Shown: piece after piece, positions 8,788 to 32,636 of the stretch
Numbering within the stretch: the first letter of the stretch is position 1
How the letters are laid out: the number at the start of each line of letters is the position of its first letter
Assembly (NCBI GenBank): GCA_030666795.1
Contig: DAOUXC010000004.1
Span: 1 to 33,663 of the forward strand
Origin: Desulfobacteraceae bacterium
Lineage (GTDB): Bacteria > Desulfobacterota > DSM-4660 > Desulfatiglandales > Desulfatiglandaceae
Direction of reading: 5' to 3'
DNA: 33,663 nucleotides
Position numbers and translations under genes: made by a program
The notes under the pieces: model-generated
The model's database searches: none
What the model was told of the DNA's origin: nothing
The model's input: only the letters and a program-made list of their open reading frames with translations

Positions 8788-8798
8788 GTGAGGATTGC

Positions 8799-9449: not shown

Positions 9450-9466
9450 CATATAAGGAGGTCCTC

Positions 9467-13221: not shown

Positions 13222-13263
13222 ATGATTCAGTGAAAAGATAAAAATTATGAGAAAAAAGTATAA

Positions 13264-13316
13264 AAGGAGACATCCTTCAATAATCAAATAACCCGATAAC
13301 ATACGATTGTAAGGAG
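13264..13316 (+). repeat. RAYT-associated dispersed repeat, type A extension
   Basis: gagacatccttcaataatcaaataacccgataacatacgattgtaagg matches the core family. Confidence 0.85.
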
Positions 13317-13326
13317 GGAATGCAAA

Positions 13327-13351
13327 GGGGCGGCCCTTTAAGGACCGCCCC
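13327..13351. terminator. Terminator-like GC hairpin after the defence operon
   Basis: GGGGCGG-C-CC-TTTAA-GG-A-CCGCCCC; no U tract. Confidence 0.4.
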
Positions 13352-13382
13352 TGGGATGAGGGAGTTGAAATGTGCGGTGTTG

Positions 13383-13619
13383 TTAATGAACCGCAATCTT
13401 TTTCGGCTTTTTTTCCTCAGGCTTTGGAATTTCCACTTTCAAAAGACCATCTTTGTAATCGGCATCGATTTTGTCAGGGTCTAAGCCTTCAGGTAGTGCA
13501 AAAGACCTGTGAAATTTTCCGAAGGCCCTTTCTTTCCGATGATAGTTTTCCTCTTTTACCTCATTTTCATAAGAACGTTCCCCTGAAAGCGGGACGCTCT
13601 TTAATAATTTAATTGACAT
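13383..13619 (-). pseudogene. 5'-truncated Hsp20/alpha-crystallin small heat-shock protein remnant
   Basis: GERSYENEVKEENYHRKERAFGKFHRSFALPEGLDPDKIDADYKDGLLKVEIPK matches the C-terminal half of Hsp20; N-terminal part absent. Confidence 0.85.
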
Positions 13620-13693
13620 GAAAAGGGGTCGTAGTCGGCTGGTTTAACAAGCAAGTTCAGTCAATATAACGCTCATGATTTTGAAGTGATTGT

Positions 13694-14362
13694 ATGGGAA
13701 GGATAATACAGCCAAAGGGAACTAAAGGCAGTCTAAGGTGGATTCAGCATGTTGTTAATGAGTGTCCCGATGTGTTGAGCAAGCTGGTGATTGATTCAAT
13801 TGGAGCTGGTAAAGAAAAGTCCATTGAATGGCTTTCCCCAAAAGCAGATGATGACTATTCGGAATATCGCGATCAGGACTTCCTTGATCTTCTGGGAATC
13901 AAACTTTCCACAACAAGCCTTAATGATTTCTGGCCAAAACAGGGCCCGCAATGGGATGCATTAGGCCGAATTGAAGACAAGGCATATTTCCTTGTAGAAG
14001 CAAAAGCCCATGTTTCGGAAATAATCTCTTCATCACAAGCAAAATCAGCAAAATCCAAAGCATTGATAAACAATAGCCTGTATGAAACCGGAAAATATCT
14101 GAAACTGAATCCAAATATCGATTTATCAAAGAGATTCTATCAATATTCGAATAGACTGGCTCATCTCTATTTACTCAGAGAACTGAATAATATTCCCGCT
14201 TACCTGGTCTTTGTATATTTCATTAGCGATTATACTCATGTTCCAACGACCAGGGAGGAATGGAAAGATGCACTCCAGTTGATGTATGCCACTTTAGGCA
14301 CTCACAAACACAAACTGTCAAAATATGTCATTGATGTTTTAATAGACGTGAAGAATTTATAA
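13694..14362 (+). CDS. Hypothetical protein, possible PD-(D/E)XK nuclease-like fold
   Basis: WDALGRIEDKAYFLVEAKAHVSEI resembles a D-...-ExK nuclease core; 222 aa. Confidence 0.5.
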   Translation: MGRIIQPKGTKGSLRWIQHVVNECPDVLSKLVIDSIGAGKEKSIEWLSPKADDDYSEYRDQDFLDLLGIKLSTTSLNDFWPKQGPQWDALGRIEDKAYFLVEAKAHVSEIISSSQAKSAKSKALINNSLYETGKYLKLNPNIDLSKRFYQYSNRLAHLYLLRELNNIPAYLVFVYFISDYTHVPTTREEWKDALQLMYATLGTHKHKLSKYVIDVLIDVKNL

Positions 14363-14481
14363 GCCATAATGGAGGTCAATAATGTTCCTCCAATCACTAT
14401 GAATTTCCAACAATCCCTTTGAGTTTGGTGCATAAACACGGCGGCTGAAGGCCTGCTTTATATGAAAAATAAGGGAATAGA

Positions 14482-14754
14482 ATGGATGAAATTGAAATAA
14501 AATTTACTCCTCAGGAAAGATGTTTGATCCTTGACGAGACTTTCGCCGGGCCGGATCTAACAAAAAGGCTAAAAATCTCGGAGATCAAAGGAAAGCACCT
14601 TATTGTAAAATATTCGACTTATGATCTTGAGGAATTAGTCGGATTTATAGCAGCAGAGGCAAATCACACGGAGGACAAAAAAATTGGTAAAAAGCTCGAT
14701 AGGCTTTTTGAAAGGCTGTCTCGTATCCTTGAGAAAGAAATCGAAAATCAATGA
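14482..14754 (+). CDS. Hypothetical 90-aa protein
   Basis: Open frame in the coding direction; no family recognised. Confidence 0.45.
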   Translation: MDEIEIKFTPQERCLILDETFAGPDLTKRLKISEIKGKHLIVKYSTYDLEELVGFIAAEANHTEDKKIGKKLDRLFERLSRILEKEIENQ

Positions 14755-14796
14755 ATTACATTTCAGATAACATTCGCTTGTGAAAGAATAGGTTTT

Positions 14797-14910
14797 GAAA
14801 AGATGGGGACGTTCGTGACATATTGACATGCTATGACTCTTGGCGCGAACCAATAATAAAGGGGACATCCTGAAATAATCAAATAACTTGACATCATACA
14901 ATTGTAAGGC
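14797..14910 (+). repeat. Composite dispersed repeat: GGGGACGTTCGTGA unit + core + type A extension
   Basis: gaaaagatggggacgttcgtgacatattgacatgctatgactcttggcgcgaaccaataataaaggggacatcctgaaataatcaaataacttgacatcatacaattgtaag; upstream half repeated at 18197. Confidence 0.9.
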
Positions 14911-15005
14911 TGGTCGGCCCGGCGGACCAAGGGACAACTGCAAAAGGGTAAATCGGTTGCTTAGGGTCTAAGCAGCACAAAGCTAATAACACGGGGTCAA
15001 CTACG

Positions 15006-15290
15006 ATGGCTGACGCAATCTGCCCAAAATGTGGATATCAGCAACCTGAAGGAAATGCAGAATGCCAGAAATGTGGCATCATCTTCAGAAAATATGCGGA
15101 AAAACAAGAGATGGAACAGATTGAAGTCGGAAGCAAAGCAGATTGGTTGGTCAAAACGGCGATCTATTCCTGTATCTCACTCGGAGTATTCCTCTTTGTT
15201 TTATTTATCGCCTTGTATGTAATTCCCACGCTTTTTCCAGATATTGGGACCAGGAAGTATATCAATGCGATCATAGATTTGCTTTTTTAG
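15006..15290 (+). CDS. Zinc-ribbon membrane protein
   Basis: CPKCGYQQPEGNAECQKCG plus a C-terminal transmembrane segment. Confidence 0.7.
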   Translation: MADAICPKCGYQQPEGNAECQKCGIIFRKYAEKQEMEQIEVGSKADWLVKTAIYSCISLGVFLFVLFIALYVIPTLFPDIGTRKYINAIIDLLF

Positions 15291-15305
15291 TCCGTTTCTG
15301 TGTTG

Positions 15306-15399
15306 TAAAGGGGGACATCCTCAAATAATCAAATAACTCAAGATAGAATGAAAGAATGGGGGTTGCGCCTACACTCTTTCCAAATGCCATGACGGATTA
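15306..15399 (+). repeat. Dispersed repeat, type B extension (HNH-gene 5' stub)
   Basis: aagggggacatcctcaaataatcaaataactcaagatagaatgaaagaatgggggttgcgcctacactctttccaaatgccatgacggat. Confidence 0.88.
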
Positions 15400-15423
15400 A
15401 TCAAAAGTCAACCGGTGACCCCT

Positions 15424-17811
15424 TTATTCGATGCTTGCTATAAGTCTTTTTGTGTCCGGTATCCATTCCGGATCCACTGAGAGGGCGTCAATTCCTGCTT
15501 CGAGAAAGAGAGTCATCAAATGTCTCGATTTTACGAAATTCTGTCCGCCAATGACCACACGGGAACCCGCATCGTGGGCGATGTCAACGGCTTTTTTCAA
15601 TTCGTCCCCGAAATCCGGATCTTCTTTGTTTCTCTCGACAGCGTTTTCGAGCGCCCCTTTCTTGTTGAGAAAGAGATGACGAAGTTTCCGCGCCGGGAAA
15701 AAAATTCCATAAAAACGAGAGCTCAAGGACTTCAGGTCTTTTATGTTGTCAGGAAAATCACACGAAAGATGCAACTTGAAATCTCCCCGGCCACGGGAAA
15801 CCCCTTCTTCATCCAGGATCGCGAGGACTCGATCTGCTTTCTCGACGCTCATGCAGTAGGTAATCATGGCCTCGATATTCTTTAGGCCGAGGACCTCTCG
15901 CGCTCGCCTTAAGGCCCGACACTCAAGAACGAAAGCCTCTTGGAAATGGTCGCTCAGGTATCTTGAGGCACCGCGAAATCCGAATCGAGGATCCTCTTTT
16001 TGCGGTTCGAACCATTTTCCTCCTATTAAGGCCGCATACTCCTCCCCAGGGAAATCGCTTAACCGGACAACAACGGGCGCCGGGTAACGGGATGCGGCGA
16101 TTTCAGCCACAGCTTCTGAAAGCTGATCAACAAAATAGTCCTCCTTTGTCACGAATCCTTTTGTTATGGCTTCTATCTCCTGGATTTCTTCCTCATCCCT
16201 TACTCTCTCGGGATGGCGCAGGGCCATGGGATGGACGCGAATGGTGTGCTTAAAAATAGTATTCAGCCGTACCATCCCGATCCCGTCACAGGGGATCCTC
16301 CACCACTGGTAGGCAGCATCTTCGCTTGCAGCATTCATCAAAACAGAAAGGTCCGTATGGGGAATTTTGTCTAAAGGAATCTGTTTTTCGGTAGATTCCA
16401 AAATGCCGTTGTAAACAAACCCTTCCTCGCCTTCAACGCAAGACAGGGTGATTTCCTGCCCTGTATTCAGAACCTCGGTAGCCTTCAGGGTCCCGACAAT
16501 AGCAGGAATGCCGAGCTCCCGGCTGATAATGGCACTATGAGAGTTTCTTCCGCCAAAATCGTTCACGATTCCTTTGACGTGCTTGCCCCTTATAGCCGTG
16601 ACCCAATGCGTATTTGCAGATTCTGAAACAAGAATGGAGGATTCTCTCAGTTGATTGATTTTCCTGTAGCTCTCTATCAATGAAACGACGCCTGTCTCGA
16701 CCCCGTCCCCCACGCTGATACCATTCAAAAGCGGTTCCTTTTTCACGTTTAGCCGCTTTAAGGTCAGGGATTTTGTTTTGGCGAGGTCTTTCCCCGTTAC
16801 GGGCCGGGCCTGAACAATATATAGCTCGTTATCCATACCGTCTTTTGCCCACTCAATATCCATGGGCCTGCCATAAAGTTTTTCAATCAGGCACGCCCAG
16901 CGCGCCAGACGAATAATCTCTTCGTCTTTTAGGACGAAACGCTCTTTTTCTTCAAGGGGAGTTTCCACGTTGCTTGTCCCTCCATCCTTTCCGGAGGCGA
17001 AGATGCATTTCAGCCCCTTGTCCCCAAGGGCCTTTTCCACAATAGGGACGAGTCGTTCTCCCGCCAAAAGGGGCTTGAAGACCTTGTAGATATCCGGGAC
17101 GACCACACCCTGGACCACATTTTCTCCTAACCCCCAAGAGGCACTTATCAGAACGATGTCCGGGAACCCACTTCTCTTGTCCATCGAGAACATCACGCCT
17201 GCGCTCCCGCTGTCGGCGCGCAGCATTCTCTGAACACCGAGGGAGATAGAAACCTGCATGTGGTCGAACCCCATTTCTTCCCTGTAAATGATCGCTCTCT
17301 CCGAGAAAAGTGAAGCGTAACAACGCACACATGCTTGCATCAATGCTTCTTTTCCTCTCACATTCATAAAGCTTTCGAGCATTCCTGCGAAACTGGCTTG
17401 GGGCAAATCTTCGGCAGTTGCACTGCTCCTGACGGCGACAGCAGGACTATCATCTCCCTGCGATTTGGAAAGATGCTCATGGGCCTTTTCCATTTCTTGG
17501 GCTAATCTCGCTGGAAACCGGGCGGATTTGAAAAGGTGATGAATGGATCTGCTCACTTCCTCGGCAGAAATCCTCTCTTTTCTATAATCTTCGAAAAGCG
17601 ATTGCATCTCTGTTTCCATATTGTTGTTGTGAATGAAATCCTTGTATGCTTGTGCCGTCGTGGCAAATCCCTGTGGAAAGGGTATCTCATGCTGCTTGAG
17701 ATTTCGCATCATGTCACCCAGGGTGGCGTTTTTGGCTCCCACCGTTTCGACATCTTCATGTGCTACATCTTCGAGCCAGCGGATATACTCCTCATTTTTT
17801 TTAAAAAACAT
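15424..17811 (-). CDS. Phosphoenolpyruvate synthase-like protein
   Basis: ATP-grasp/PPDK N-domain (GAKNATLGDMM, AVRSSATAEDLPQASFAGMLESF), phosphohistidine region GGRNSHSAIISRELGIPAIVGT, PEP-utiliser C-domain; AGGGAGA Shine-Dalgarno before MFFKK at 17811. Confidence 0.9.
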   Translation of the reverse strand: MFFKKNEEYIRWLEDVAHEDVETVGAKNATLGDMMRNLKQHEIPFPQGFATTAQAYKDFIHNNNMETEMQSLFEDYRKERISAEEVSRSIHHLFKSARFPARLAQEMEKAHEHLSKSQGDDSPAVAVRSSATAEDLPQASFAGMLESFMNVRGKEALMQACVRCYASLFSERAIIYREEMGFDHMQVSISLGVQRMLRADSGSAGVMFSMDKRSGFPDIVLISASWGLGENVVQGVVVPDIYKVFKPLLAGERLVPIVEKALGDKGLKCIFASGKDGGTSNVETPLEEKERFVLKDEEIIRLARWACLIEKLYGRPMDIEWAKDGMDNELYIVQARPVTGKDLAKTKSLTLKRLNVKKEPLLNGISVGDGVETGVVSLIESYRKINQLRESSILVSESANTHWVTAIRGKHVKGIVNDFGGRNSHSAIISRELGIPAIVGTLKATEVLNTGQEITLSCVEGEEGFVYNGILESTEKQIPLDKIPHTDLSVLMNAASEDAAYQWWRIPCDGIGMVRLNTIFKHTIRVHPMALRHPERVRDEEEIQEIEAITKGFVTKEDYFVDQLSEAVAEIAASRYPAPVVVRLSDFPGEEYAALIGGKWFEPQKEDPRFGFRGASRYLSDHFQEAFVLECRALRRAREVLGLKNIEAMITYCMSVEKADRVLAILDEEGVSRGRGDFKLHLSCDFPDNIKDLKSLSSRFYGIFFPARKLRHLFLNKKGALENAVERNKEDPDFGDELKKAVDIAHDAGSRVVIGGQNFVKSRHLMTLFLEAGIDALSVDPEWIPDTKRLIASIE

Positions 17812-18196
17812 CGATGTCTCCCTTTCGTTTCTATGGCACATTTCGTTGCCATGGCAGCAAACAAAAAACCCTAAAGGTCACAGCGAGCCGCCAGCCTTGT
17901 GACGAGACGCAGTTTCCTGTCTCTGATCATACCATAAGCCATCCGTTCAGCTGGTGCATAAAACAATGCTGTGTGGTAGGCTAAAAATTTACATAAAAAA
18001 ATTCCCTTAAAATAGACGTTGTGGTAATCCTGAAAATCGAAGGAAGGTATCCCGTGAATCACTCCATTAAATTATCACAAGCAGTGTGGCAAAGCAAATA
18101 GTACATCTGTCCGCAGCAACTTATCCGAAAGTTGCAGGAAGGTGAAAAAGATGAAGAACCGCCGCCGCGAAGCTCAAAACAGAAAGGAAGCCACAC

Positions 18197-18312
18197 ATGA
18201 AAAGATGGGGACGTTCGTGAAATATTGACATGCTATGACTCTTGGCGCGAACCAATAATAAAGGGGACGTCCTTCAATAATCAAATAACTCAAGATAGAA
18301 TGAAAGAATAGG
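18197..18312 (+). repeat. Composite dispersed repeat: GGGGACGTTCGTGA unit + core + start of type B extension
   Basis: Near-identical to 14797-14880, then ctcaagatagaatgaaagaatagg. Confidence 0.9.
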
Positions 18313-18369
18313 TGACATTGAGGCAGACAGGATTCAACTAAAGTGTTTACCTAATACGTTAATAAAATA

Positions 18370-18398
18370 TTGACATTTTAACACATCGTGGATATCCT
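18370..18398 (+). promoter_or_regulatory. Candidate sigma70 promoter for the XRE-ImmA/IrrE gene
   Basis: TTGACA-N17-TATCCT upstream of the start at 18514. Confidence 0.45.
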
Positions 18399-18513
18399 TT
18401 TTAAAACCACAAAATTCAAAAAACAATGCAACAGCCAGGCTTTGTTGGTTCGTATGGAGGCCTGGATTGGGCAGGTGTCTCTTCTGTTGAAATCATTGGA
18501 GTGGAGGATACCC

Positions 18514-19635
18514 ATGGGTAGACCTGTTAAAAATGAATATTTACCGGACAGTGTGTCGCCCCCGGGTGAAACACTGTTAGAGACTATTGGAGCACTTGGA
18601 ATGTCTCAGGCTGATTTGGCAGATCGAACAGGGCGTTCCAAGAAAATGATCAATGAAATTATAAAAGGCAAGGCCCCAATAACAGCCCGAATGTCCCTGG
18701 AACTGGAACGGGTTTTAGGGGTGCCGGCATCCTTCTGGAATAATCGGGAGCGTCATTATCGTGAAGCACTGGCCCGGATTGAAGAGCAGGATCGCCTGCA
18801 GACACAGGTAAAATGGCTTGATTCATTTCCGGTCAATGCCATGGTGAAATGGGGATGGATCGAGAAATTTAAAGAGAAGGTTCTTCAGCTTCAAGAGGTC
18901 CTGAGATTCCTTGGCATTGCATCACCGGATCAGTGGTCAACCGTCACTGAGAGTTTAGGTCGTCAAGTGGCCTTTAGAAAGTCAGAGGCATTTGAGGTCG
19001 ATAATTATGCTCTCATTGCCTGGCTTCGTAAAGGGGAACTTGATGCAAAACAAATTCATTGCGAAAGATACGATGAAAACATGTTTCGAGCGACACTCAA
19101 GGCCATTCGGATCTTGACCGTTAAGCCCCCTCAAGTTTTTCAAAAGAAAGTAACTGAAATGTGTTCGGCCTGTGGCGTTGCGGTTGTCTTTGTACCGGAA
19201 TTGCCAAAAACCAGAGTCAGTGGAGCGACCCGCTGGCTGAAACCCAATAAGGCGCTGATTCAATTAAGCCTGCGATACAAATCAGATGATCATTTGTGGT
19301 TTTCTTTTTTCCACGAAGCCGGGCATATTATCAAACACGGAAAAAAAGAAATATTTATTGAAGGGACATCAATGGAAATGGCTGCAAAAAAAGAAGATGA
19401 GGCAAACCGATTTGCGGCGGATTGTCTGATTCCACCTTCAGAGTATAAACGCATGGTTGGAAACAGCCCGTATTCAAAAGCAAAGATTAAAGCATTTGCA
19501 AGACAGCTTGGTATTGCGCCGGGAATTGTGGTGGGGCGTCTTCAGCATGACAAATATTTACCTGTCACACATTGTAATGATTTGAAAAAACGGTTTGAAT
19601 GGGCGCGATCACAAGGGAGTCGGGCACGTCCTTAA
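18514..19635 (+). CDS. HigA-like XRE HTH + ImmA/IrrE metallopeptidase protein
   Basis: HTH (MSQADLADRTGRSKKMINEIIKGKAPI) and HEAGH zinc motif; GGAGTGGAGG Shine-Dalgarno before ATG 18514. Confidence 0.88.
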   Translation: MGRPVKNEYLPDSVSPPGETLLETIGALGMSQADLADRTGRSKKMINEIIKGKAPITARMSLELERVLGVPASFWNNRERHYREALARIEEQDRLQTQVKWLDSFPVNAMVKWGWIEKFKEKVLQLQEVLRFLGIASPDQWSTVTESLGRQVAFRKSEAFEVDNYALIAWLRKGELDAKQIHCERYDENMFRATLKAIRILTVKPPQVFQKKVTEMCSACGVAVVFVPELPKTRVSGATRWLKPNKALIQLSLRYKSDDHLWFSFFHEAGHIIKHGKKEIFIEGTSMEMAAKKEDEANRFAADCLIPPSEYKRMVGNSPYSKAKIKAFARQLGIAPGIVVGRLQHDKYLPVTHCNDLKKRFEWARSQGSRARP

Positions 19636-19723
19636 ATAATTCAATAACTCAGGATGGAATGAAAGAATAGGGGTTGTGTCTTCGCTCTTGACAAACGGCA
19701 TGACGGATATAGATCAAAGAGTT
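19621..19723 (+). repeat. Dispersed repeat, type B extension (HNH-gene 5' stub); encodes the 3' end of the upstream gene
   Basis: gggcacgtccttaaataattcaataactcaggatggaatgaaagaataggggttgtgtcttcgctcttgacaaacggcatgacggatatagatcaaagagtt. Confidence 0.88.
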
Positions 19724-19768
19724 TCAAAAATGGGCGCGCGTATTCGCGGACGAGGCGGCTGTTTTTGT
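19718..19768 (+). repeat. Second short repeat, copy 1, fused to the type B repeat
   Basis: agagtttcaaaaatgggcgcgcgtattcgcggacgaggcggctgtttttg, compare 24092-24141. Confidence 0.8.
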
Positions 19769-19782
19769 AAAAGACACAGGTG

Positions 19783-21387
19783 TCAGGATTCAAAAACGCC
19801 GGCTTTGAGTTTACAGTACTCGGTGTAGGTACACACGTGGTCAGCGAAACCAACGCCGGCATCATCATATAGACCGTAGGCGGCATCGATACCCTCCTGT
19901 TTTAGAATGTCTATTTCATCCTCGTAGCGCACCGATGCAACGATCTGGCCCCGGTAATCTCTACTCTTCATCTGTTGAATCGCGAAAATAACCGCATCGA
20001 GATCACGTAAAGCCAACATGACCACCTGCACCCGGCCTCTTGCAGGATCGACCCGTTCCCAAAAATCACTGTCTTTGGCATCGCCATAAATTACATTTCT
20101 TCCCTGTTTTCGATGCCTCTCCACCGTTTCATTAGAGAAGTCCAGACCGATCACCACATTGCCGTAGCGCCGCCTCATTTCTTTGTATGCACTTGTTCCT
20201 ACGCCCCCCATGCCGAGTATCACAATTTCAGACTCTCCGGTTTCTATGATCTCATCTTCAGGCAGGCGTTTCGCGGTCTCAAAGCGTTTCAGGAATTCTG
20301 AAGCATGCGCGTAAATTTTGTGAGCGGCGGTATTCAACTGCGCCGCCCCTATATACGTTATCGAGAGCGCAATAGCGATGATGACAAGCCAGTCGCTACT
20401 CATCCAGCCGTTTGCCACACCGATGGCTCCAACAATCAGACCGAACTCGCTGTAATTGGCAAGACCAAGCGATGCGAGGATCGATGTCCGCGCACGAAGC
20501 CTGAATCGCGTCAGGATTATGAAAAACAGTGCGAACTTGAACGGCATTGCAAGCGCCAGCAGCAGCGCAATCGATATGCCCATCAGCGACGGTGTGCCTG
20601 AAATGCCGATATTTAAAAAGAATCCAACAAGAAACAGATCTTTAAATCCAAGCAACCTGTCAGCAAGTTCTGTCGCTTTTGGATTATTGGCCAGGAGCAT
20701 GCCAAACACGAGCGCCCCCAGGTCGCCTTTTAAATCGACCATTTCAAAGCTAATATACCCGGCGGTTGTCATCAGTATGCCAAACAGCACCAGAAGCTCT
20801 CCATGACCGCATTGAGCCATTAATCTGGTCAGCAGCGGTCTTACGAGAATAAGCAATACCAGGAGGGCTGCCATCCAGGGAGAAGGGAGTTTTCCGGTAG
20901 AGGCCGATAGAAAGACAACCGCGATAATGTCCTGCATGATCAGGATACCGATTGCCGCGGCAGCATGGCGGGAAGCCATCTCTTTCCTGTTTTCGAGTAC
21001 TTTTACAGCAAAAACTGTACTCGAAAAACTCAGGGTGAACGCTATAAGTATTGCAGTTTGCCAGCTTAGATTTCGAAAAAGAGGCATCTCTGCAACACCA
21101 AGAATCCAGACCCCGAACCCGAAAACCGCAACGGTGATAAGCATGTGGATTGTCGTACCGGCCCATACTTCGGGCCTGGCAAGGGTTTTCAACTTCAGCT
21201 TAAGTCCAATGGTAAAAAGGAGCAGCGTAACTCCGATATCTGCAATTTTTACAAGGAGTTCGCCGCCTTCAACACCGAGTCCGTTAAGGACAAAACCGGC
21301 GACAAGATATCCTACAAGGGGCGGCAGACCAACCCTGCTGGACGCAGCGCCAAATATAAAAGCGGCAACAATCCAAAATGGCTCCAT
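19783..21387 (-). CDS. KefB-like CPA2 monovalent cation:proton antiporter with TrkA-N domain
   Basis: Multiple TM segments, C-terminal EIVILGMGGVGTSAYKEMRRRYG Rossmann domain; GGAGGAG Shine-Dalgarno before MEPFW at 21387. Confidence 0.88.
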   Translation of the reverse strand: MEPFWIVAAFIFGAASSRVGLPPLVGYLVAGFVLNGLGVEGGELLVKIADIGVTLLLFTIGLKLKLKTLARPEVWAGTTIHMLITVAVFGFGVWILGVAEMPLFRNLSWQTAILIAFTLSFSSTVFAVKVLENRKEMASRHAAAAIGILIMQDIIAVVFLSASTGKLPSPWMAALLVLLILVRPLLTRLMAQCGHGELLVLFGILMTTAGYISFEMVDLKGDLGALVFGMLLANNPKATELADRLLGFKDLFLVGFFLNIGISGTPSLMGISIALLLALAMPFKFALFFIILTRFRLRARTSILASLGLANYSEFGLIVGAIGVANGWMSSDWLVIIAIALSITYIGAAQLNTAAHKIYAHASEFLKRFETAKRLPEDEIIETGESEIVILGMGGVGTSAYKEMRRRYGNVVIGLDFSNETVERHRKQGRNVIYGDAKDSDFWERVDPARGRVQVVMLALRDLDAVIFAIQQMKSRDYRGQIVASVRYEDEIDILKQEGIDAAYGLYDDAGVGFADHVCTYTEYCKLKAGVFES

Positions 21388-21639
21388 TGGAACTCCTCCT
21401 TGAATAGTATTTTCTAAAGATTGAAAAGGAACTGATATTGATGCTTTATAAAATCCAAGCACATATCGACAATTCTATGAAAAGGGATCAAGTCTAAGCC
21501 TGACTCTTGCTCGTCCGGTAAGGGGACGGGGAAATATAAAATGGTACATAGCTGTTCATCTTGAATGCTTGCGAATTCGTTTTTATTTTAGGTTATAAAA
21601 CATATGTTATGTATTTTCAAGAACGTGAAAAGATACTTG

Positions 21640-21692
21640 TAAAGGGGGACGTCCTTAAATAGTCAAATAACTTGACAGAATACTATTGTAAG
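21640..21692 (+). repeat. Dispersed repeat, type A, directly 5' of the RAYT gene
   Basis: aaagggggacgtccttaaatagtcaaataacttgacagaatactattgtaag. Confidence 0.92.
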
Positions 21693-21700
21693 AGTAATTT

Positions 21701-22714
21701 GTGGTCATGCCCAGGACAGCCCGACTCGATAGCCCCGGCCTCTTGCATCATATCATGATAAGGGGAATAGAGCGCCGCAGGATATTTAATGATGATAAAG
21801 ATCGTAAAAACTTTCTTGAACGGCTTTCTATTCTCCTGCCGGAAACCAGGACCCAATGCTATGCATGGGTATTCATGCCTAATCACACCCATTTTCTTTT
21901 CAGAAGTGGTTCCTCAGGCATTTCCACCTTGATGAGAAGACTTTTAACAGGCTATGCGGTATCTTATAACAGAAGGCATAAGCGGCATGGTCAGCTTTTC
22001 CAAAACAGATATAAATCCATCATATGCCAGGAAGACGCATATCTGCAGGAACTGGTCAGGTATATTCATTTGAATCCTCTAAGGGCAAAAGTGGTGGTTG
22101 ATCTGAAGGCCCTTGATAGCTACGCCTATTGTGGGCATAGTGTTTTGATGGGAAAGAAAAAAATAGAATGGCAGGATATTGAATATGTGTTGGGGTATTT
22201 TGGAAAGAGAACCGGAACCGCTCGAAAGAGGTACCGGTCCTATATTGAGGAAGGTATTCCCTTGGGAAGGCGTCCCGAGCTGGTGGGGGGTGGTTTGATC
22301 AGGAGTCTGGGGGGATGGGATGAATTAAAGAAGGTGCGTTTGACAGGACAGGATCGTATCAAGAGTGATCAGCGGATATTAGGAGTGAGCGATTTTGTCC
22401 AGGAAGTTCTTTTTGAATCGGGAGAAAATTTCACACGGAAATATAAATTCAAAAGTCGTGGTTTTAATTTTGAAAAGGTCGTTGATAAAGTATCTTTATT
22501 ATTTAAGTTGGAAAAGGATTACATAATCGGAAAAGGCAGGCAAAAGGACAGGGTCCGGGCCAGGGACCTGGTTTGCTATTGGTCTGCGAATGAACTGGGA
22601 ATCTCTATGGCGGATTTAGCAAAAAGATTTGGACTAACACTTGCGGCAGTGAGTTACGCAGTAAAAAGGGGAGAAGAAACAGCAAAGGAGGGCGGTTACC
22701 TGCTGGATGATTAA
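21701..22714 (+). mobile_element. REP-associated tyrosine transposase (RAYT, IS200/TnpA_REP-like)
   Basis: RTARLDSPGLLHHIMIRGIERRRIF...CYAWVFMPNHTHFLFR (HUH-type NHTHF)...GQLFQNRYKSIICQEDAYLQELVRYIHLNPLRAKVV. Confidence 0.93.
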
Positions 22715-22745
22715 GTTATTTGAATATTTAAGGACGTGCCCTTTA
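22712..22745 (-). repeat. Dispersed repeat core in inverted orientation at the RAYT 3' end
   Basis: Reverse complement aaagggcacgtccttaaatattcaaataacttaa; contains the RAYT stop codon. Confidence 0.9.
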
Positions 22746-22763
22746 CAGAAGCATTTCGAAAAA

Positions 22764-22877
22764 ATTGCCGTGAATCTGGCCTACTACCTGGCCAAATGCC
22801 TCGAAGAATTGCGCCCGGAAGAGGCTGGCGCCGCAAGGGTGCTATGGGAACTGGTCAAGGGCCGACGATTAGGATAA
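22764..22877 (+). pseudogene. 3' remnant of a second DUF1156 methylase gene
   Basis: Reads IAVNLAYYLAKCLEELRPEEAGAARVLWELVKGRRLG*, 30/37 residues identical by eye to the C-terminus of the intact DUF1156 protein (8674-8787). Confidence 0.92.
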
Positions 22878-22946
22878 CATGCTTGGCAAGTCGATAAGAT
22901 CCTGAGTATTTTTTGGAGTAGGTTGGGGTGAAGGGGGAGGAATTTG

Positions 22947-23984
22947 ATGAGTCACAATCTTACTGAAAGAACAGAGTTCCTGCTATACCAGACCGATGAT
23001 GGCCATACACGTATTGAGACGCGAATGCAGGATGAGACCGTCTGGCTTTCGCTAAACCAGATGACAGAACTGTTCCAGCGAGATAAATCGGTTATTTCAA
23101 GACATATAGCCAATGTATATAAAGAGGGAGAACTCGACCGTGAGGCAACTGTTGCAAAATTTGCAACAGTTCAGACGGAAGGGAGCCGGGAGGTCTCACG
23201 CGATGTTGAATTTTTCAATCTCGATGTCATCATCTCAGTCGGCTATCGCGTCAAATCCCACCGGGGCACCCAGTTTCGTATCTGGGCTACGCGACGCCTG
23301 CGTGAATACATTATCAAGGGTTTTACCCTGGATGACGAACGACTGAAACAGGCAGGCGAAGGCAATTATTTTGATGAACTGCTGGCGCGGATCCGGGATA
23401 TTCGATCCTCTGAAAAGGTCTTTTGGAGAAAGGTCCTGGATATCTACGCCACCAGTATCGACTATGACCCTGATACAGATCTTTCCCGTGAATTTTTTGC
23501 TGTAGTGCAGAACAAAATGCACTGGGCTGCACATGGTCACACGGCCGCGGAAATTATTGTTGAGCGTGCTGATGCCTCAAAGGAAAAAATGGGGCTGACT
23601 TCATGGACAGGTGACAAGCCGTCAGTTGCTGATGCTGAGATAGCCAAAAACTACCTGCGTGAGCAAGAGCTGAAAATCCTGAACCGGATCGTAATGGCCT
23701 ATCTTGAACTTGCCGAAATACAGGCCCTTAATCAGAACCCCATGTACATGCGTGACTGGATTACAAAACTTGATGATTTTTTAAAACTAAGTCAACGAGA
23801 TATCCTTTCACACGCGGGTAAAGTAAGCCATGACGAGGCAGTTGCCATTGCCAGGGCTGAATATGAAAAATACCGGGAAAAACACCTGAATGACCCTTCA
23901 CCTGTGGAGAAGGATTTTCTGAAAGCTGTAAAGGAAATAAAACGCATTGAGGCCGGAAAGAAAGGGAAAAAGAAGACATCTTGA
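22947..23984 (+). CDS. RhuM family protein
   Basis: FLLYQTDDGHTRIETRMQDETVWLSLNQMTELFQRDKSVISRHIANVYKEGEL; GGGAGGA Shine-Dalgarno. Confidence 0.9.
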   Translation: MSHNLTERTEFLLYQTDDGHTRIETRMQDETVWLSLNQMTELFQRDKSVISRHIANVYKEGELDREATVAKFATVQTEGSREVSRDVEFFNLDVIISVGYRVKSHRGTQFRIWATRRLREYIIKGFTLDDERLKQAGEGNYFDELLARIRDIRSSEKVFWRKVLDIYATSIDYDPDTDLSREFFAVVQNKMHWAAHGHTAAEIIVERADASKEKMGLTSWTGDKPSVADAEIAKNYLREQELKILNRIVMAYLELAEIQALNQNPMYMRDWITKLDDFLKLSQRDILSHAGKVSHDEAVAIARAEYEKYREKHLNDPSPVEKDFLKAVKEIKRIEAGKKGKKKTS

Positions 23985-24031
23985 ATCACGGATATCATTG
24001 ATGTCACTCATATTCAAAAAATGAAAGGCTT

Positions 24032-24060
24032 GGGGACAATCCTTAAATAATCAAATAACT
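24032..24060 (+). repeat. Dispersed repeat core
   Basis: ggggacaatccttaaataatcaaataact. Confidence 0.85.
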
Positions 24061-24091
24061 TTTAATCAGCCTGCTGAAAAATGGACATAAA

Positions 24092-24141
24092 AGAGTTTCA
24101 AGAAAGGGCGCTCGTATTCACGGACGAGGCGGCTGTTTTTG
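24092..24141 (+). repeat. Second short repeat, copy 2
   Basis: agagtttcaagaaagggcgctcgtattcacggacgaggcggctgtttttg, compare 19718-19768. Confidence 0.8.
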
Positions 24142-24535
24142 AAGTTGTAATGAAGGTAGGGGACATCCCGTTTAAATATCAAAACAAGAATCATTTAACG
24201 GGACATGCTATCGTGACAAATTCTTGATGCCCACACGCCAAACCTCAACCGCATTGACAAAATCGTCAGATAATTCCATAAGAATAAAGCGACCTTGGTC
24301 TCAAGCGCACATCTGATCCAATCTTGTTTATCCGGAAAGCGGACCGGGAAATACGAAGCGGCAAGGGATGGAATTTGTGACCGGAGGGGGATAAATCTAC
24401 GCCTGGCTTTTGCAGTGTATAGATAACAATCAAACGTACTCTTGACCTGTTCATGGGATGATAAATTCTCTTTTTATAATTTCGATCAGGGATTAAATGG
24501 CTTAGTAAGAAACGACTTAGAAAGGAGGGAGTACA

Positions 24536-25048
24536 ATGGCAGAAGTGGACTTCAGAGTTTTTCGAGACCTTAGCTACGGGCTCTATATCGTTACCTCGAG
24601 AGATGGTGAAAAGATCAACGGACAGATCGTAAATACGGTCATCCAGGTGACTTCTGATCCACCCAGGGTTGCCGTAATTATCAACAAGAAAAACCTGACA
24701 CATGAATTCATCATGAGCAGCAAGGTTTTTGCTGCCATGGTGCTCGATGAAAATGTTTCAATGGCTTTTCTTGGTCCTTTTGGATTCCGCTCCGGAAGGG
24801 ACATAAATAAATTTGAAAAAGCGGCTTTTAAAAAGGGAGATACCGGTTCCCCGATTGTTATGGAAAACACCCTGTCAACAATCGAGGCAAACGTTATTGA
24901 TAACATTGATCTTGGAACGCACACGATTTTCGTAGGTGATGTGGTGAACTCCGAGGTGCTGAAAGAGGGGAGTCCGTTAACCTATAAGCACTACCATGAG
25001 CATTTAAAGGGGAAAACACCACCGAATGCGCCAAGCTTCAAGGGATAG
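24536..25048 (+). CDS. Flavin reductase-like FMN-binding domain protein
   Basis: FRVFRDLSYGLYIVTSRDGEKINGQIVNTVIQVTSDPPRVAVIINKKNLTHEFI; GAAAGGAGGGA Shine-Dalgarno. Confidence 0.85.
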   Translation: MAEVDFRVFRDLSYGLYIVTSRDGEKINGQIVNTVIQVTSDPPRVAVIINKKNLTHEFIMSSKVFAAMVLDENVSMAFLGPFGFRSGRDINKFEKAAFKKGDTGSPIVMENTLSTIEANVIDNIDLGTHTIFVGDVVNSEVLKEGSPLTYKHYHEHLKGKTPPNAPSFKG

Positions 25049-25195
25049 CTTTCTTCAAGAAAAGGGGAGGCCCATCTCAACCCCTCATAAAGAGTAGTGA
25101 AAAGTGTAAAGGGGTACAAGGCGCAGGGGCAAAAACTTTTAATGGGTGCCCCCCCTTATTATTCACCGGCTTTAACCAAGACCATACCTACCGTA

Positions 25196-25235
25196 TGCAC
25201 ATAAAATTGTGCATCACTGCACATGAAACTGTGCA
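25196..25235. promoter_or_regulatory. Tandem palindromic upstream activator-like sites
   Basis: TGCACA-TAAAAT-TGTGCA and TGCACA-TGAAAC-TGTGCA, 22 bp centre-to-centre. Confidence 0.7.
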
Positions 25236-25285
25236 TCCCACGATACTCAAAATATATTTATGAATAATATCAATGGTTTAATTTC

Positions 25286-25301
25286 TGGCATGTCTGTTGC
25301 A
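25286..25301 (+). promoter_or_regulatory. Sigma54-type (-24/-12) promoter
   Basis: TGGCATGTCTGTTGCA against consensus TGGCACGNNNNTTGCW, one mismatch. Confidence 0.72.
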
Positions 25302-25461
25302 TCCGCAATTGAGCTGCATTCATAATTTTTAAGACAAACGTCTGATTATATTTTTTCAATGAAACATCTGAAATGCTGACAAAACTCTAACAATATTAGC
25401 TTACGTCATTCTTATGAAGGTTTGGAAACAACATTTCTGAAAAGGAAAGAGGAGCTAGAGC

Positions 25462-26778
25462 ATGAAATCAGTGTTTGCGATTTTCAATGAATCTGAAGAA
25501 ACGGGTCTGCTGAAAGAGACAATCGCCCAGGAGTTTAACATCAATGTCATTACCTCATTCAATGACCTTAATGACACCAGCCTTAATGAAGCCGACATTG
25601 CCCTTATAGACCAGGACATTTCCCAACCACCCGTTAGAGATATTGTTAAAAGAATTTTGGAGGCATCTTACCTCCCGGTGATCTTACTTGCAAATAGCGA
25701 CAACGCCATCGGTGCAATAGATGCCATCCGGGATGGCGCCTATAATTACCTCATTAAGACAAAAGATTGTCATCAAATAATCAACCTCGTCATTAAAGAT
25801 GCCATTAACAAGTCCTCCGAGAAAGCCCAGATGAGGCAAACCATCGTTGATTTGAAAAAAAGAGTGGCTGAACTGGAAGGGAAATTGAGCAAAGCAGGGA
25901 CAAAAGACACAACGGTATCTTCTGCGAAAAACACTCAAGGCGGTATTATTGATGATGTTGTTGACAGCTTAAAACGCGGAGAAATCAATTTGCCCTCACT
26001 TCCAAAGATAGGGATAGAGTTCAAAAAATTAATGGATAAAGGCGGTGATTTTCAAGAAGTCGCGGATCTTTTAAAGCAGGACATGGCAATTTCATCCAAG
26101 CTGATCAGCGTATCCAACTCTGCTTATTACCGGGGTATGACTCCAAACCGGACAACGGAACAGGCTGTCGGGCGCTTGGGTCTGAACCTCACCCGGCAGT
26201 ATGTCGATGCGATATTCAACCGAAGCTTATATGCCACTTCAAACAAAAAGTACGTGGAAGTCATAGAACGACTGTGGAAACATGCCTTCTCGTGCGCGTT
26301 TTCTTGTCAATGCGTCACCGAGGCGCTCGACCTCACTTTAAGGGACGATGCTTTTTCAATAGGATTGTTTCACGACATCGGAAAGCTGTTTCTTATTCAA
26401 ATCATTTCCGAGATGGAAACCAAGGGTAAATTTTCAGAGGAGGTTGACATGGAGGATCTGATCAATACCCTTTCCGCCCATCACGGCAGTTTCGGTTCCA
26501 GCCTGCTCAAGCGATGGGGGTTTTCTGAACAGTGCGTTCAAGCCGCCCGGTACTGTGACGATATTAAGGCCGCGGATCCTATTTCTAAAGAGCTTATTGT
26601 CGTGCATTTCTCCAACGTGCTGGTGGGGACGATGGGATATGACTTTGAAGATCCGGAAAAAATAGACCTCGAAAGCTTAGAATCCACTCATCTCCTTGGC
26701 CTGGATTCTTCAGCTATTTCCGAAATAAGAAACAAGGTCAAAGGGTACATGGAGGGAGAATTAATAGATTGTCTGTGA
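25462..26778 (+). CDS. Receiver-like N-terminal domain + HDOD domain protein
   Basis: REC-like N-terminus (EADIALIDQDIS...LPVILLANSDNAIGAIDAIRDGAYNYLIK); HDOD LPSLPKIGIEFKKLM..., FHDIGKLF. Confidence 0.87.
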   Translation: MKSVFAIFNESEETGLLKETIAQEFNINVITSFNDLNDTSLNEADIALIDQDISQPPVRDIVKRILEASYLPVILLANSDNAIGAIDAIRDGAYNYLIKTKDCHQIINLVIKDAINKSSEKAQMRQTIVDLKKRVAELEGKLSKAGTKDTTVSSAKNTQGGIIDDVVDSLKRGEINLPSLPKIGIEFKKLMDKGGDFQEVADLLKQDMAISSKLISVSNSAYYRGMTPNRTTEQAVGRLGLNLTRQYVDAIFNRSLYATSNKKYVEVIERLWKHAFSCAFSCQCVTEALDLTLRDDAFSIGLFHDIGKLFLIQIISEMETKGKFSEEVDMEDLINTLSAHHGSFGSSLLKRWGFSEQCVQAARYCDDIKAADPISKELIVVHFSNVLVGTMGYDFEDPEKIDLESLESTHLLGLDSSAISEIRNKVKGYMEGELIDCL

Positions 26779-26801
26779 TAAATTCAGCTCAACGTAAAGA
26801 C

Positions 26802-26905
26802 AAGGGCACGTCCTTAAATAATCAAAGAAATCAGGATAGGATGAAAGAACAGGGTCGCGTCTATACTCTTGACAAACGGCATGACGAATATAGATCAAAG
26901 AGTTC
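26802..26905 (+). repeat. Dispersed repeat, type B, continuous with the HNH endonuclease 5' end
   Basis: agggcacgtccttaaataatcaaagaaatcaggataggatgaaagaacagggtcgcgtctatactcttgacaaacggcATGacgaatatagatcaaagagtt. Confidence 0.88.
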
Positions 26906-27186
26906 GAGTTGCAGTTTTTAACTGGCTGGATGAGCAAGTTGGCATGTATGGTGATGTATTGCCGCGTTCGATATTAGCACAGGGCCTTGAGTTTGAGGGT
27001 CAGCATGTCCCATTGGTTGCAACCACAGGGATTTTCAAGCCTAAAATACTCCGCCAAATGCCCCTTTCCATTACAACTACACCGGAAGGACCTTACGAAG
27101 ACAGTTTTGGCTCCGACGGTTTGCTTTTGTATCGTTATCGCGGAACCGATCCACAGCACCGGGTCACAAATTTCAGGCAAAAGTAA
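26881..27186 (+). pseudogene. N-terminal fragment of an HNH-type restriction endonuclease family protein
   Basis: MTNIDQRVRVAVFNWLDEQVGMYGDVLPRSILAQGLEFEGQHVPLVATTGIFKPKILRQMPLSITTTPEGPYEDSFGSDGLLLYRYRGTDPQHR; the HNH half is absent. Confidence 0.8.
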
Positions 27187-27224
27187 GCTTTACTACCGGG
27201 TAATCGTCTGCTATAGGATGGTAC

Positions 27225-27410
27225 ATGAAATTTTTGGAAAAAATATTTGGTAAGCCGGAGCCCATTCCCAAGCTCGGTAGAAATGATATGTGCTGGTGCG
27301 GAAGCGGAAAGAAATACAAGCATTGTCATCTGGAGTCCGATGAGAAAAGGCGCTCCAAATTCAGAACTGCAACGTGTACAACAGCATCTTGACGAAAGTA
27401 AAGGGCTGAG
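27225..27410 (+). CDS. Short SEC-C metal-binding motif protein
   Basis: [61 protein letters not shown]; not in the ORF track. Confidence 0.7.
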
Positions 27411-27500
27411 TTTCATCCCCTGGGTCTTCTGAGTAAACAAGTGTCTTTACATGTCAATCCCCAAAAATAGCCAAATAAAGCGCCCCGCCGCAATCAGCGT

Positions 27501-27523
27501 GAAGGGGGACGTCCTTCATTTAG
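27501..27523 (+). repeat. Degenerate dispersed repeat core inside the 5' part of the hydrolase ORF
   Basis: gaagggggacgtccttcatttag. Confidence 0.75.
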
Positions 27524-27546
27524 CCTGTCGGTCATGCGGCACCTCT

Positions 27547-28392
27547 TTGAAGTTGTGTGTCCTCGTTTTGCTCAGCTGGTTGATCGCCGGCTGCTCAAGC
27601 CACCTTTTTTACCAACCGCGTCCTTATCCGACCGAGATGCTGCGCGCGTTGAAGGAAAATCCCCGCCTCACCCCGCTCTCATATCCCACGGGTGCCGGCA
27701 GGCAGGTGGTTTTTTATATGGCCCCTGCCGGAGCGCGGCATAATCCACCGTCCCGGGTGTGGTTACTGTTCGGCGGTCTCAGGTCGAACGCTCTTGAATG
27801 GATACAATGGTTTGCCGGCTATTCTGATCCACAGGCCGGGTTCCTCCTTTTCGAATACCCCGGCTACGGCCTTTGCGAAGGCTACAGCCGCGATCATCTC
27901 ATTCTGGAATCTTCGCTCACGGCCCTCGACACCCTGGCGACAAAACTTGCCATGTCTCCGAAGCGGTTGCATGATAGCCTTTTTCTTTTGGGTCATTCCT
28001 TTGGCTGTGCAGCAGCCCTGCAGCTTGCCTGCCAGGTGCCCGTGCGGGGGCTGGTTCTCATCTCACCCTTTACGACGCTGGCCGATATGGGCCGATTACA
28101 ATATGGGCCGGTTGCGGGCACCCTGGCCCATTTTTTCATGTTTGAACGCTACGACAACCGCGCCCGAATGAAGGCGTTGGCATCCCGCCCCGATCCGCCC
28201 CCGGTGACCGTCATCCACGGTCAGGCGGATGAAGTCGTGCCGGTGTGGATGGCCCGGGATCTGGTGCGAAATTATCCGGCCCTGGCCGCCTTTTATGAAA
28301 TCCCCGCTCTCGAACATTCCGGAGTTTTTTCCAACCATCTGCCGCTGACCCACAACGCCATGCGCAAATATAAATGTGACGCCCCTAAATAA
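27547..28392 (+). CDS. Alpha/beta hydrolase, probable lipoprotein
   Basis: Lipobox-like LIAGC; LFGGLRSNALEW, LLGHSFGCAAALQL nucleophile elbow, VTVIHGQADEVVP. The ORF extends to 27451, but the upstream part overlaps repeat sequence; start uncertain (TTG 27547 proposed). Confidence 0.82.
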   Translation: MKLCVLVLLSWLIAGCSSHLFYQPRPYPTEMLRALKENPRLTPLSYPTGAGRQVVFYMAPAGARHNPPSRVWLLFGGLRSNALEWIQWFAGYSDPQAGFLLFEYPGYGLCEGYSRDHLILESSLTALDTLATKLAMSPKRLHDSLFLLGHSFGCAAALQLACQVPVRGLVLISPFTTLADMGRLQYGPVAGTLAHFFMFERYDNRARMKALASRPDPPPVTVIHGQADEVVPVWMARDLVRNYPALAAFYEIPALEHSGVFSNHLPLTHNAMRKYKCDAPK

Positions 28393-28474
28393 CCAAATAA
28401 TTTGACAACTTACAGCTGTAACCTTAACTTTTAATATTGGCTGGGACAGCACGAATCGATAGTCCCGACTCCGT
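28375..28474 (+). repeat. Dispersed repeat, type A, continuing into a decayed RAYT 5' stub
   Basis: gacgcccctaaataaccaaataatttgacaacttacagctgtaac...ggctgggacagcacgaatcgatagtcccgactcc, compare RAYT start atgcccaggacagcccgactcgatagccccggcc. Confidence 0.82.
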
Positions 28475-28521
28475 GTATAAATAAAGGCGCAGGGCGCAGG
28501 GTATAGGGGAGGGCTCTTATC

Positions 28522-28845
28522 ATGCAGAAGAAAAAAACCGTATTCATAATCATGGTGGCTGCTTTATTTGTTTTCGCAACATCTCAGTTTTTGCTTGCAG
28601 GCGAAAGAATCGTAAAGTTGACAGTTCCAGGGTGTGTCTGACCCGGCACGGCCGCCGGGGTAGGTTCTATCCTGAAAGGTGTCGATGGTGTTTCAAATTT
28701 TGAAACAGACACAAAAAATCACACGGCAACCGTATGGTTTGATGATGAAAAGACAGGTGTTTCAGCAATAGAAAAAGCCCTTGCTCATGGAGGTTATCCT
28801 GTGGAGGGGAAAGCGCAGTTTTTGAATTCGCGCTATCAGCCATAA
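28522..28845 (+). CDS. MerP-like heavy-metal-associated domain protein with predicted selenocysteine (in-frame TGA at 28639-28641)
   Basis: Frame reads MQKKKTVFIIMVAALFVFATSQFLLAGERIVKLTVPGCVUPGTAAGVGSILKGVDGVSNFETDTKNHTATVWFDDEKTGVSAIEKALAHGGYPVEGKAQFLNSRYQP*; signal peptide, HMA pattern on both sides of the TGA; hairpin GGGTAG-GTT-CTATCC after the TGA; Shine-Dalgarno GGGGAGGG. Confidence 0.82.
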
Positions 28846-29093
28846 GCTTTCGGCTTTCAGCAAAAGGCATTAAAAACAAGGCGTTGGCTGATTGCTGACC
28901 GTTGAAAGCTCCATCCAGAAATTGGTTGTTTATGGATGGACACTAAGTAGTAAGAGAGTGGGGATGTCTCTTGGAGAAGTGTCTATGCGATTGGAGATAG
29001 GTCTTTTACCATGGGGATCTCTTCTGAAAGGGGTGAGGACACCGCCGGCGTCTGTCTTTCAGGTTTAAATATCGCGGGAATGAGAGGAATACC

Positions 29094-29936
29094 ATGACTT
29101 CAAAACCAAAATCCATGACCCAGGAAGCGGCCAAGGCCTTTCTGGATTCCCATTCAGTTGAGGAATACATCCTTCTCGATGTTCGTCAGGACTGGGAGTA
29201 TGAGGAGTTTCACCTTCCCGGAGCCACATTGATTCCTCTACCTGTGTTAGCGGATCATCTGGCTGAAATGGCTCGCGACAAGCCAACCATCGTTTACTGT
29301 GCATCCGGCGGCCGGAGTGCTGCTGCCGCCAACCTTTTGAGTGGGCAGCGATTCAAGGAGGTTTATAACCTCCTGGGTGGAGTCATGGCGTGGCGGAATG
29401 AATACGCGGTGGGTCCGTTTGAACTGGGTACGGGCTATTTCTCGGGCAAAGAGACCCCTCTGGAAATTCTGGCCCTTGCCTTCAAGATGGAAGACAATCT
29501 GGGCTCTTTCTATGCTGAAATTGCATCCTCGGCAAGCAGTCTCGATGTCAAAAAGACCCTTACAAAGTTGGCCGGTTTCGAGAAAGGACATAAGGCTAAG
29601 GTCTTTGCCGTGGCCAAAGCCTTTGAGCCCTCCCTGGAGGACATGGGGGAATTTGCAAAGGGAACTTACGCGGACGCCCTGGAGGGGGGGATGGGTGCTG
29701 AAGCATTCCTTGAGGCGAACAGGGAGTATTTTCAAACGCCCAAAGGTACGCTGGAAGCGGCCATGATGTTTGAAGCGCAGGCCTTGGATCTCTATATGCG
29801 CTGCGCGGAAAGCGCATCGTTTGAGAAGGCCGTGACCGTGCTTCACCAATTGGCCCAGGAGGAGAAGGCACACCTCAAGATCCTGGCAAAGCTCATGGAG
29901 ACCTTGCATGACTCGCGTAAAGGGGGACATCCTTAA
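29094..29936 (+). CDS. Rhodanese + rubrerythrin/ferritin-like fusion protein
   Basis: Rhodanese active loop YCASGGRS; C-terminal ferritin-like region (EILALAFKMEDNLGSFYAEIA...EEKAHLKIL). Confidence 0.9.
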   Translation: MTSKPKSMTQEAAKAFLDSHSVEEYILLDVRQDWEYEEFHLPGATLIPLPVLADHLAEMARDKPTIVYCASGGRSAAAANLLSGQRFKEVYNLLGGVMAWRNEYAVGPFELGTGYFSGKETPLEILALAFKMEDNLGSFYAEIASSASSLDVKKTLTKLAGFEKGHKAKVFAVAKAFEPSLEDMGEFAKGTYADALEGGMGAEAFLEANREYFQTPKGTLEAAMMFEAQALDLYMRCAESASFEKAVTVLHQLAQEEKAHLKILAKLMETLHDSRKGGHP

Positions 29937-30025
29937 ATAATCAAATAACTCAAGATAGGATGAAAGAATAGGGGTTGCGTCTACACTCTTGACAAACGGT
30001 ATGACGGATATAGATAAAAGAGATC
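29919..30025 (+). repeat. Dispersed repeat, type B (HNH-gene 5' stub); encodes the 3' end of the rhodanese-rubrerythrin gene
   Basis: aaagggggacatccttaaataatcaaataactcaagataggatgaaagaataggggttgcgtctacactcttgacaaacggtatgacggatatagataaaagag. Confidence 0.92.
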
Positions 30026-31839: not shown

Positions 31840-31984
31840 TTCTCCTTTCGGATAATGTGACTCCAATCGACCGTGTGAGGCAGTATTTCAAATTTCCCGG
31901 CTTGGATTAAGCTGTCAATAGAGGAGTTGCCTGTCTTAATGGATAGTCATAATTCTATACTCTTTTAAAAGTGAGGTCAAATCC

Positions 31985-32135
31985 GGGTGAGACAAAGCTG
32001 AAAAGGAGAAAAGGGGAATCGGGGACGGAAGAAAGAGGACGGAGGACGGACGACAGACGACGGAAGGCGGAGGAAAGAGTGAGCAGACGACAGAAGGCAG
32101 ACGGCAGAAGACTGACGGCAGAGGGCGGAGGACCC
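31985..32135 (+). repeat. Purine-rich degenerate heptamer-period repeat array
   Basis: ggacgga ggacgga cgacaga cgacgga aggcgga ...cagacgg cagaaga ctgacgg cagaggg cgga. Confidence 0.85.
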
Positions 32136-32636
32136 CAGTGAAATAGGACTACAAAAACATTTCACGGGGCACCGCATGGCGGCATCTTCGACAGGCAGAG
32201 GACAGATTACAGGCAGCAGATAGCAGAAGAAACAAGGCTGAAACGGGTAAAAAAAAAGGTTTCCAAAACAATTTCAAAAATTCTTTTGTTTTATGTTTTA
32301 GACGCAGTATATCTTAACAATAGTGAAAATTTTATTAAGTGCTAATCTTGCTTTGAAATATAAAGGGAGCTTGGTTTTCAAGACAGGAAGTCTTTTTGGA
32401 ACCTCTTTTACGGCACTTCTGCCTCTTGACGATATCAACGAGAAGTTGATGAGGTTTCTCATTGCGCCTGATCTTGGCTTTTAGAGCGCAAGGAGTAAAG
32501 AATGCCAAATGTCTTAATAGAAGTAAGCAACAATATTCAACTGAAATTGAAAGCGAAATAATTGAGGACGGATCAGCTCGGTAGAGCGCATCTTGAGAAA
32601 GGAAAACGAAAGCTGAAAAGCTCGGCTCGCTCGGGA

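Follow-up and report, generated by a model that had tools for sequence, protein, structure and literature searches.

A relic of a second DUF1156 methylase gene next to a RhuM gene, and the exchangeable-cargo position after DUF1156 in Type-2 BREX-related loci

The segment at positions 22764-22877 (forward strand) of the DNA analyzed here, a 33,663-bp stretch that we call the window, is the remnant 3' end of a DUF1156 methylase gene: the final 37 codons, with the stop, of a second copy, no longer functional, of a gene that is intact elsewhere in the window. Comparison with related loci further establishes that the position directly after DUF1156 is a real site of exchangeable cargo. An intact RhuM gene follows the relic, and we favor a scenario, while regarding the case as almost evenly balanced, in which the relic is the dead end of a second Type-2 BREX-related (BR) DUF1156 gene, this copy most likely had RhuM as its cargo and the rest was lost by a repeat-linked rearrangement.

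The intact Type-2 BR locus

The region 2127-13221 is a Type-2 BR system with darTG embedded between methylase and helicase, and its genes form one tightly packed operon on the forward strand. The operon opens with the gene for a DUF499 ATPase (2127-5210; PF04465, E 3e-24; full-length match to PADLOC DUF499), followed by a standalone DUF3780 gene (5207-5779; PF12635, E 1.5e-72) and the gene for the adenine methylase, an N6-methylase with N-terminal DUF1156 (5776-8787; PF06634, E 8e-20; full-length match to PADLOC DUF1156_MTase). Next come darT (8799-9449), which starts 11 bp past the methylase stop codon, and darG with its macro domain (9437-10519), and the last gene encodes the PLD/HKD nuclease-helicase (10492-13221; PF13091, SNF2 and Helicase_C). 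All of the named core parts of a Type-2 BR system are accounted for by these genes.

Just upstream of the operon, at 547-1549, an MNT-like nucleotidyltransferase gene (PDC-M05A) is accompanied by a small partner that, judged by its position only, is perhaps a HEPN toxin. When window positions 2127-8787 were compared with the related locus L016, DUF499 and DUF3780 were 93-94% identical (best segment) and the methylase only 72%, a pattern that would fit replacement of the methylase or of its target-recognition part.

Identity of the relic

The translation of 22764-22877 is exactly the peptide quoted in the earlier note on this DNA, where it was taken to be the preserved end of a DUF1156 homologue, and both the translation and a genome search bear this out. 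Against the homologous segment of the intact methylase gene (8674-8787), 30 of the 37 residues and the stop are identical (31/38 symbols counting the stop), so the identity that had been estimated by eye was right. Aligned at the nucleotide level, the two segments share 95 of 114 bases, and blastn aligns 111 bp at 84.7% identity (E 7e-30). When the full methylase was searched in six frames against the whole genome (370 contigs, 3.36 Mb), the intact gene and the relic were the only matches, the latter with E 5.6e-9, which excludes a chance match. The relic's exact sequence was not present in the viral contigs.

Of other pieces of a second system we found none. Comparison of the intergenic DNA around the relic with all proteins of 80 related loci recovered nothing but the relic: no remnant of DUF499, DUF3780, helicase, darT or any other core gene lies in the flanking DNA, where the earlier note had hoped for DUF499 or helicase fragments within a few kb. 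A whole-genome search (the genome is 92% complete) likewise revealed no second copy or remnant of DUF1156, DUF499 or the helicase elsewhere, and the weak helicase matches that it did return are generic SNF2-type. Measured as a Type-2 BR system, then, the second copy consists of the last 37 codons of its methylase. The proposal that a second, diverged system had been destroyed here is upheld as far as a diverged and decayed DUF1156 end is concerned, but no second piece of such a system survives. The data do not establish that a whole second system, rather than part of a methylase gene, was ever present; that it was is our best guess.

Decay and kinship of the relic

With ten relatives as the reference for polarizing changes, about 11 of the 19 base differences between relic and intact gene fall on the relic branch, 6 on the branch of the window's intact copy and 2 are ambiguous. 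Five of the six changes on the intact branch are silent, whereas the relic branch has 6 amino-acid changes. Two of these, R28W and Q34R, affect positions that are invariant in the ten relatives and a third, D7Y, a position at which most of the ten agree on D. Because it is changed at residues that relatives keep, and because no other core-gene remnant lies nearby or in the genome, the relic is without any function of its own.

These changes also bear on a 56-codon open frame (22707-22877, forward strand) that runs from the stop codon of the upstream RAYT gene into the relic. The ATG of this frame overlaps the RAYT stop codon, a point in favor of a translated and useful small protein, but the changes at conserved residues in its relic part argue against selection. 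In addition, no homologue with the RAYT-relic junction was found, and RAYT units in relatives end at their inverted repeat without such an extension. There is no sign that the frame is a gene, and we consider it highly improbable that it is anything other than a chance opening.

To judge from its divergence, the relic is dead and old, having changed well beyond what a recent duplication would show: the window's intact copy differs from the L016 copy to nearly the same extent (96 of 114 bases identical) as it does from the relic, and the relic is therefore not a recent duplicate. Its nearest kin among about 70 relatives is nevertheless the window's own intact copy, and a glycine at codon 33, common to these two alone among 32 sequences compared, suggests that they are close kin. 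This kinship, together with the lack of other core fragments, would fit an old duplication limited to the 3' end of the window's own DUF1156 gene and placed beside RhuM, in which case no second system was ever here. We think such a history unlikely. It requires a duplication that dates back as far as the split from the L016 copy and whose end coincides exactly with the stop codon by chance. Furthermore, a tree of the 111-bp ends pairs the window copy with L016 (61%) and not with the relic, although its support is weak and its placement of the relic is not firm.

The RAYT unit and its repeats

Upstream, the relic adjoins a RAYT unit (21640-22747, forward strand) in which a Y1-type transposase gene (21701-22714; PF01797 Y1_Tnp, E 1e-12) lies between inverted repeats of about 35 bp (21638-21673 and 22713-22747, 92% identical). 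The unit is a discrete 1.1-kb element, and complete units recur at unrelated places in related genomes with 73-75% identity. Its end lies 17-20 bp before the relic, in agreement with the earlier estimate of about 20 bp after the inverted repeat. The Y1 HUH transposase gene with flanking inverted REP-like repeats is what is expected of a RAYT/REP element; the copy number of the repeat is low, as the 3.36-Mb genome has 12 copies (up to 3 mismatches), of which the window holds 10, whereas REP copies usually number more than 100 per genome according to the available text of PMC2817692.

The 10 window copies of this 28-bp RAYT-associated repeat, GGGGACRTCCTTAAATAATCAAATAACT, are spread over 13263-29958, almost all of them intergenic and in the same orientation, and the remaining 3.3 Mb holds the other 2. 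Two of the window copies have longer common flanks (14796-14888 and 18198-18290, 96% identical over 93 bp). Two further features of the window were recorded: a gene at 18388-19635 for an HTH plus IrrE-type peptidase protein that resembles PD-Lambda-2 subunit B (E 1.6e-44), and degenerate, purine-rich, tandem-like 14-bp repeats (about AGACGGCAGAAGGC) within 31960-33663, in two blocks at 32020-32241 and 33447-33663.

A simple insertion of the RAYT unit into a second methylase gene is not enough to explain the truncation. No methylase homology exists to the left of the unit, so a deletion is needed as well. The next copy of the short repeat lies after RhuM (24033-24060, forward strand) and, together with the RAYT unit, brackets the segment formed by relic and RhuM; the repeats may have acted as breakpoints. 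When the order Na/H exchanger, RAYT, RhuM, flavin reductase was looked for in 40 relatives, the search recovered only the RAYT unit, pieces of RhuM, copies of short repeats and, once, a weak match to the flavin reductase. On the contig with that match (G003), neither RhuM nor the relic nor the exchanger adjoins the reductase, and the comparison yielded no empty site.

The cargo position after DUF1156

The 80 related loci come from a set of 84,980 species genomes, and 68 of them hold both methylase and helicase. Counting a slot as filled when at least 300 bp separate these two genes, the position after DUF1156 is filled in 27 of the 68 loci, with at least 9 different kinds of cargo. DarTG is present in 6 loci besides the window and Schlafen/DUF4062-HATPase proteins in another 6, while MNT or MNT-HepT and PDC-M28C with a P-loop protein occur in 2 loci each. 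The remainder includes Fic plus Uma2, a protein with an AbiJ-type N-terminal domain, GmrSD, DUF3800, an OLD-like ATPase plus DUF4276, an AbiEii-like protein and unknowns. Many inserts start only a few bases past the stop codon of the methylase gene; the gap is usually 11-20 bp, and gaps of 50-200 bp occur (L039, L030 and L047).

The junction before the methylase is filled as well, in 17 of 73 loci, by DarTG, AlbA-HATPase, Uma2, a YhcG-type nuclease, PIN and others. In a divergent Type-2 BR branch (L089, L093, L133, L135, L136 and L138), darTG precedes the methylase and follows DUF3780, and DarTG also stands before the methylase on four viral contigs. Since DarTG is found both after and before the methylase in relatives, it entered two different junctions, which suggests that it was recruited separately at least twice. 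The idea that the slot after DUF1156 holds exchangeable cargo is thus confirmed with respect to the many unrelated kinds of gene that fill it, but RhuM was not among the cargo seen elsewhere.

RhuM beside the relic

The RhuM-family gene is intact (22947-23984, forward strand; PF13310, E 1e-114; PDC-S05, E 2e-155), with an ATG at 22947; its listed start is a TTG at 22944. Sequence comparison revealed no relative whose structure is known. As noted earlier, it follows the relic in the way that darT follows the intact gene, starting 69 bp past the stop codon rather than 11. The spacer between them (22878-22946) holds the ribosome-binding site of RhuM; a promoter-like match at 22883-22912 is weak and not above chance. 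Homology between the relic and the intact gene ends exactly at the stop codon, which is what a swap of cargo predicts. The spacer GTGAGGATTGCATG, conserved in DarTG-bearing relatives, is not in the relic and has been replaced, and the approximately 70 bp before RhuM match nothing, neither the spacer after the intact gene nor that after any related DUF1156 gene.

RhuM genes elsewhere keep similar company. The closest that we found (L140, 75% identity) is flanked in a compact operon by a Type III methylase gene, which ends 2 bp upstream of it, and by the gene for the partner restriction helicase, with which it overlaps by 4 bp. Others directly follow HsdS (L095, L100 and L104), a Type III methylase (L106) or HsdR (L107), and several of the matches to RhuM on plasmids coincide in part with a gene annotated as a Type I methylase. 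With such positions after methylase and HsdS genes, it is plausible that RhuM could serve as cargo behind DUF1156. In the window RhuM does not lie between same-strand genes of one host system, as it has only the relic upstream and no host gene downstream.

A DUF1156 gene followed by RhuM, which the earlier note had expected in related genomes, did not turn up. There was no such pair in tblastn searches with RhuM of the 80 genome loci and 9 viral contigs, nor in RhuM searches of genomes known to carry Type-2 BR (10 further genomes; 32 genomes), and the flanks of RhuM relatives contained no DUF1156 neighbor. A joined DUF1156-RhuM query of the plasmid collection gave no record covering 80%, the best places covering one part only. 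Moreover, RhuM is common in the lineage, being present in 46 of 118 relatives and in 19 of the 32 genomes with a Type-2 BR locus, and its position here may therefore be due to chance. The relic would then be a genuine leftover of a second DUF1156 gene and RhuM an unrelated neighbor, the two brought together by later insertions and deletions in a repeat-rich stretch. The bracketing of the segment by repeats and the RAYT unit fits with this, as does the base composition (GC3 is 0.47 for RhuM and 0.58-0.66 for the core genes). Chance alone would however have to place the two genes on the same strand at a distance of only 69 bp and make the homology break off exactly at the stop codon, the usual starting point of cargo, and would do so for a gene that habitually follows methylase and specificity genes. 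We regard this coincidence as possible but rather doubtful.

Discussion

Our best guess remains a second, destroyed system with RhuM as its cargo. This is plausible given the variety of cargo in the slot, the end of homology at the stop codon and the habit of RhuM to follow methylase and specificity genes of other restriction systems. Against it, besides the missing pair in other genomes, the 69-bp gap is longer than is usual, though longer gaps occur, and the GC3 of RhuM differs from that of the core genes, though cargo may have an origin of its own; base composition does not decide whether RhuM and the relic arrived together. In this scenario the second Type-2 BR copy would have had RhuM after its methylase stop codon, where the intact copy has darTG. 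A rearrangement in the stretch rich in RAYT repeats would then have removed everything upstream of the last 37 codons as well as the expected helicase, and RhuM would have survived by itself, served by a ribosome-binding site of its own. That RhuM was the cargo, that a full second system existed and that a repeat-linked rearrangement removed it are the parts of this account that we infer.

More generally, we tentatively propose, as an idea that may well prove wrong, that Type-2 BR systems possess permanent docking sites for cargo, one directly after the stop codon of the methylase gene and another before this gene, through which modules of unrelated abortive or toxin types are exchanged, and that the relic records a past RhuM-bearing version. 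In the host system, following the account available in PMC12839542, the methylase would mark self DNA and the helicase-nuclease would attack unmarked DNA. By analogy with known families, the modules in the slots would act as second-line toxins or nucleases if the first line fails. If this is correct, the relic preserves a pairing of RhuM with BR that is absent from every present-day genome searched. The scrap itself is ordinary genome decay, and it matters through the comparison that it prompted, with varied modules at the methylase junction and DarTG at two junctions in two branches.

There is precedent for several elements of this proposal. Payne and colleagues are said, in a 2024 preprint, to have chosen candidates for their location within other defense systems. 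The RhuM described here matches PDC-S05, a PADLOC defense candidate, and is in this respect like those guilt-by-embedding candidates, but its host system is a 37-codon relic and its embedding would be inferred. Selection of defense candidates for lying inside other defense systems is likewise how the guilt-by-embedding preprint is cited in the available text of PMC12255303. RhuM has been proposed as a toxin in the slot taken by Doc in restriction-modification (R-M) neighborhoods, according to the accessible portion of Anantharaman et al. 2013 (PMC3710099). In those R-M loci RhuM occurs beside PrrC and Doc, and no DUF1156 system is named as a host of RhuM in that portion.

The Type-2 BR system, a BREX-related system centered on DUF499, was defined in PMC12839542, and as far as the available text describes it all named core parts are present in the window operon, including a DUF499 ATPase with an Fn3-like C-terminal region; the window locus differs in having darTG inside the operon. 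The available main text of that paper mentions nuclease effectors in core loci, and DarT, ADP-ribosylation and RhuM are not mentioned there. Embedding of defense genes in host systems is itself already known, from DarTG2 in a Type I R-M system (PMC12255303) and from nucleases in BREX/BR loci (PMC12839542), as the available texts report. In the RRDM island of EPEC, darTG lies between the modification/specificity part and the helicase-nuclease part, as it does in the window, but the host there is a Type I R-M system (between hsdS and hsdR) and here it is Type-2 BR; the site in EPEC was termed a potential recombination hotspot by the authors (PMC12255303). The slot in Type-2 BR thus extends the idea of embedding from Type I R-M and Hma systems and offers a concrete place in which to seek new defense genes.
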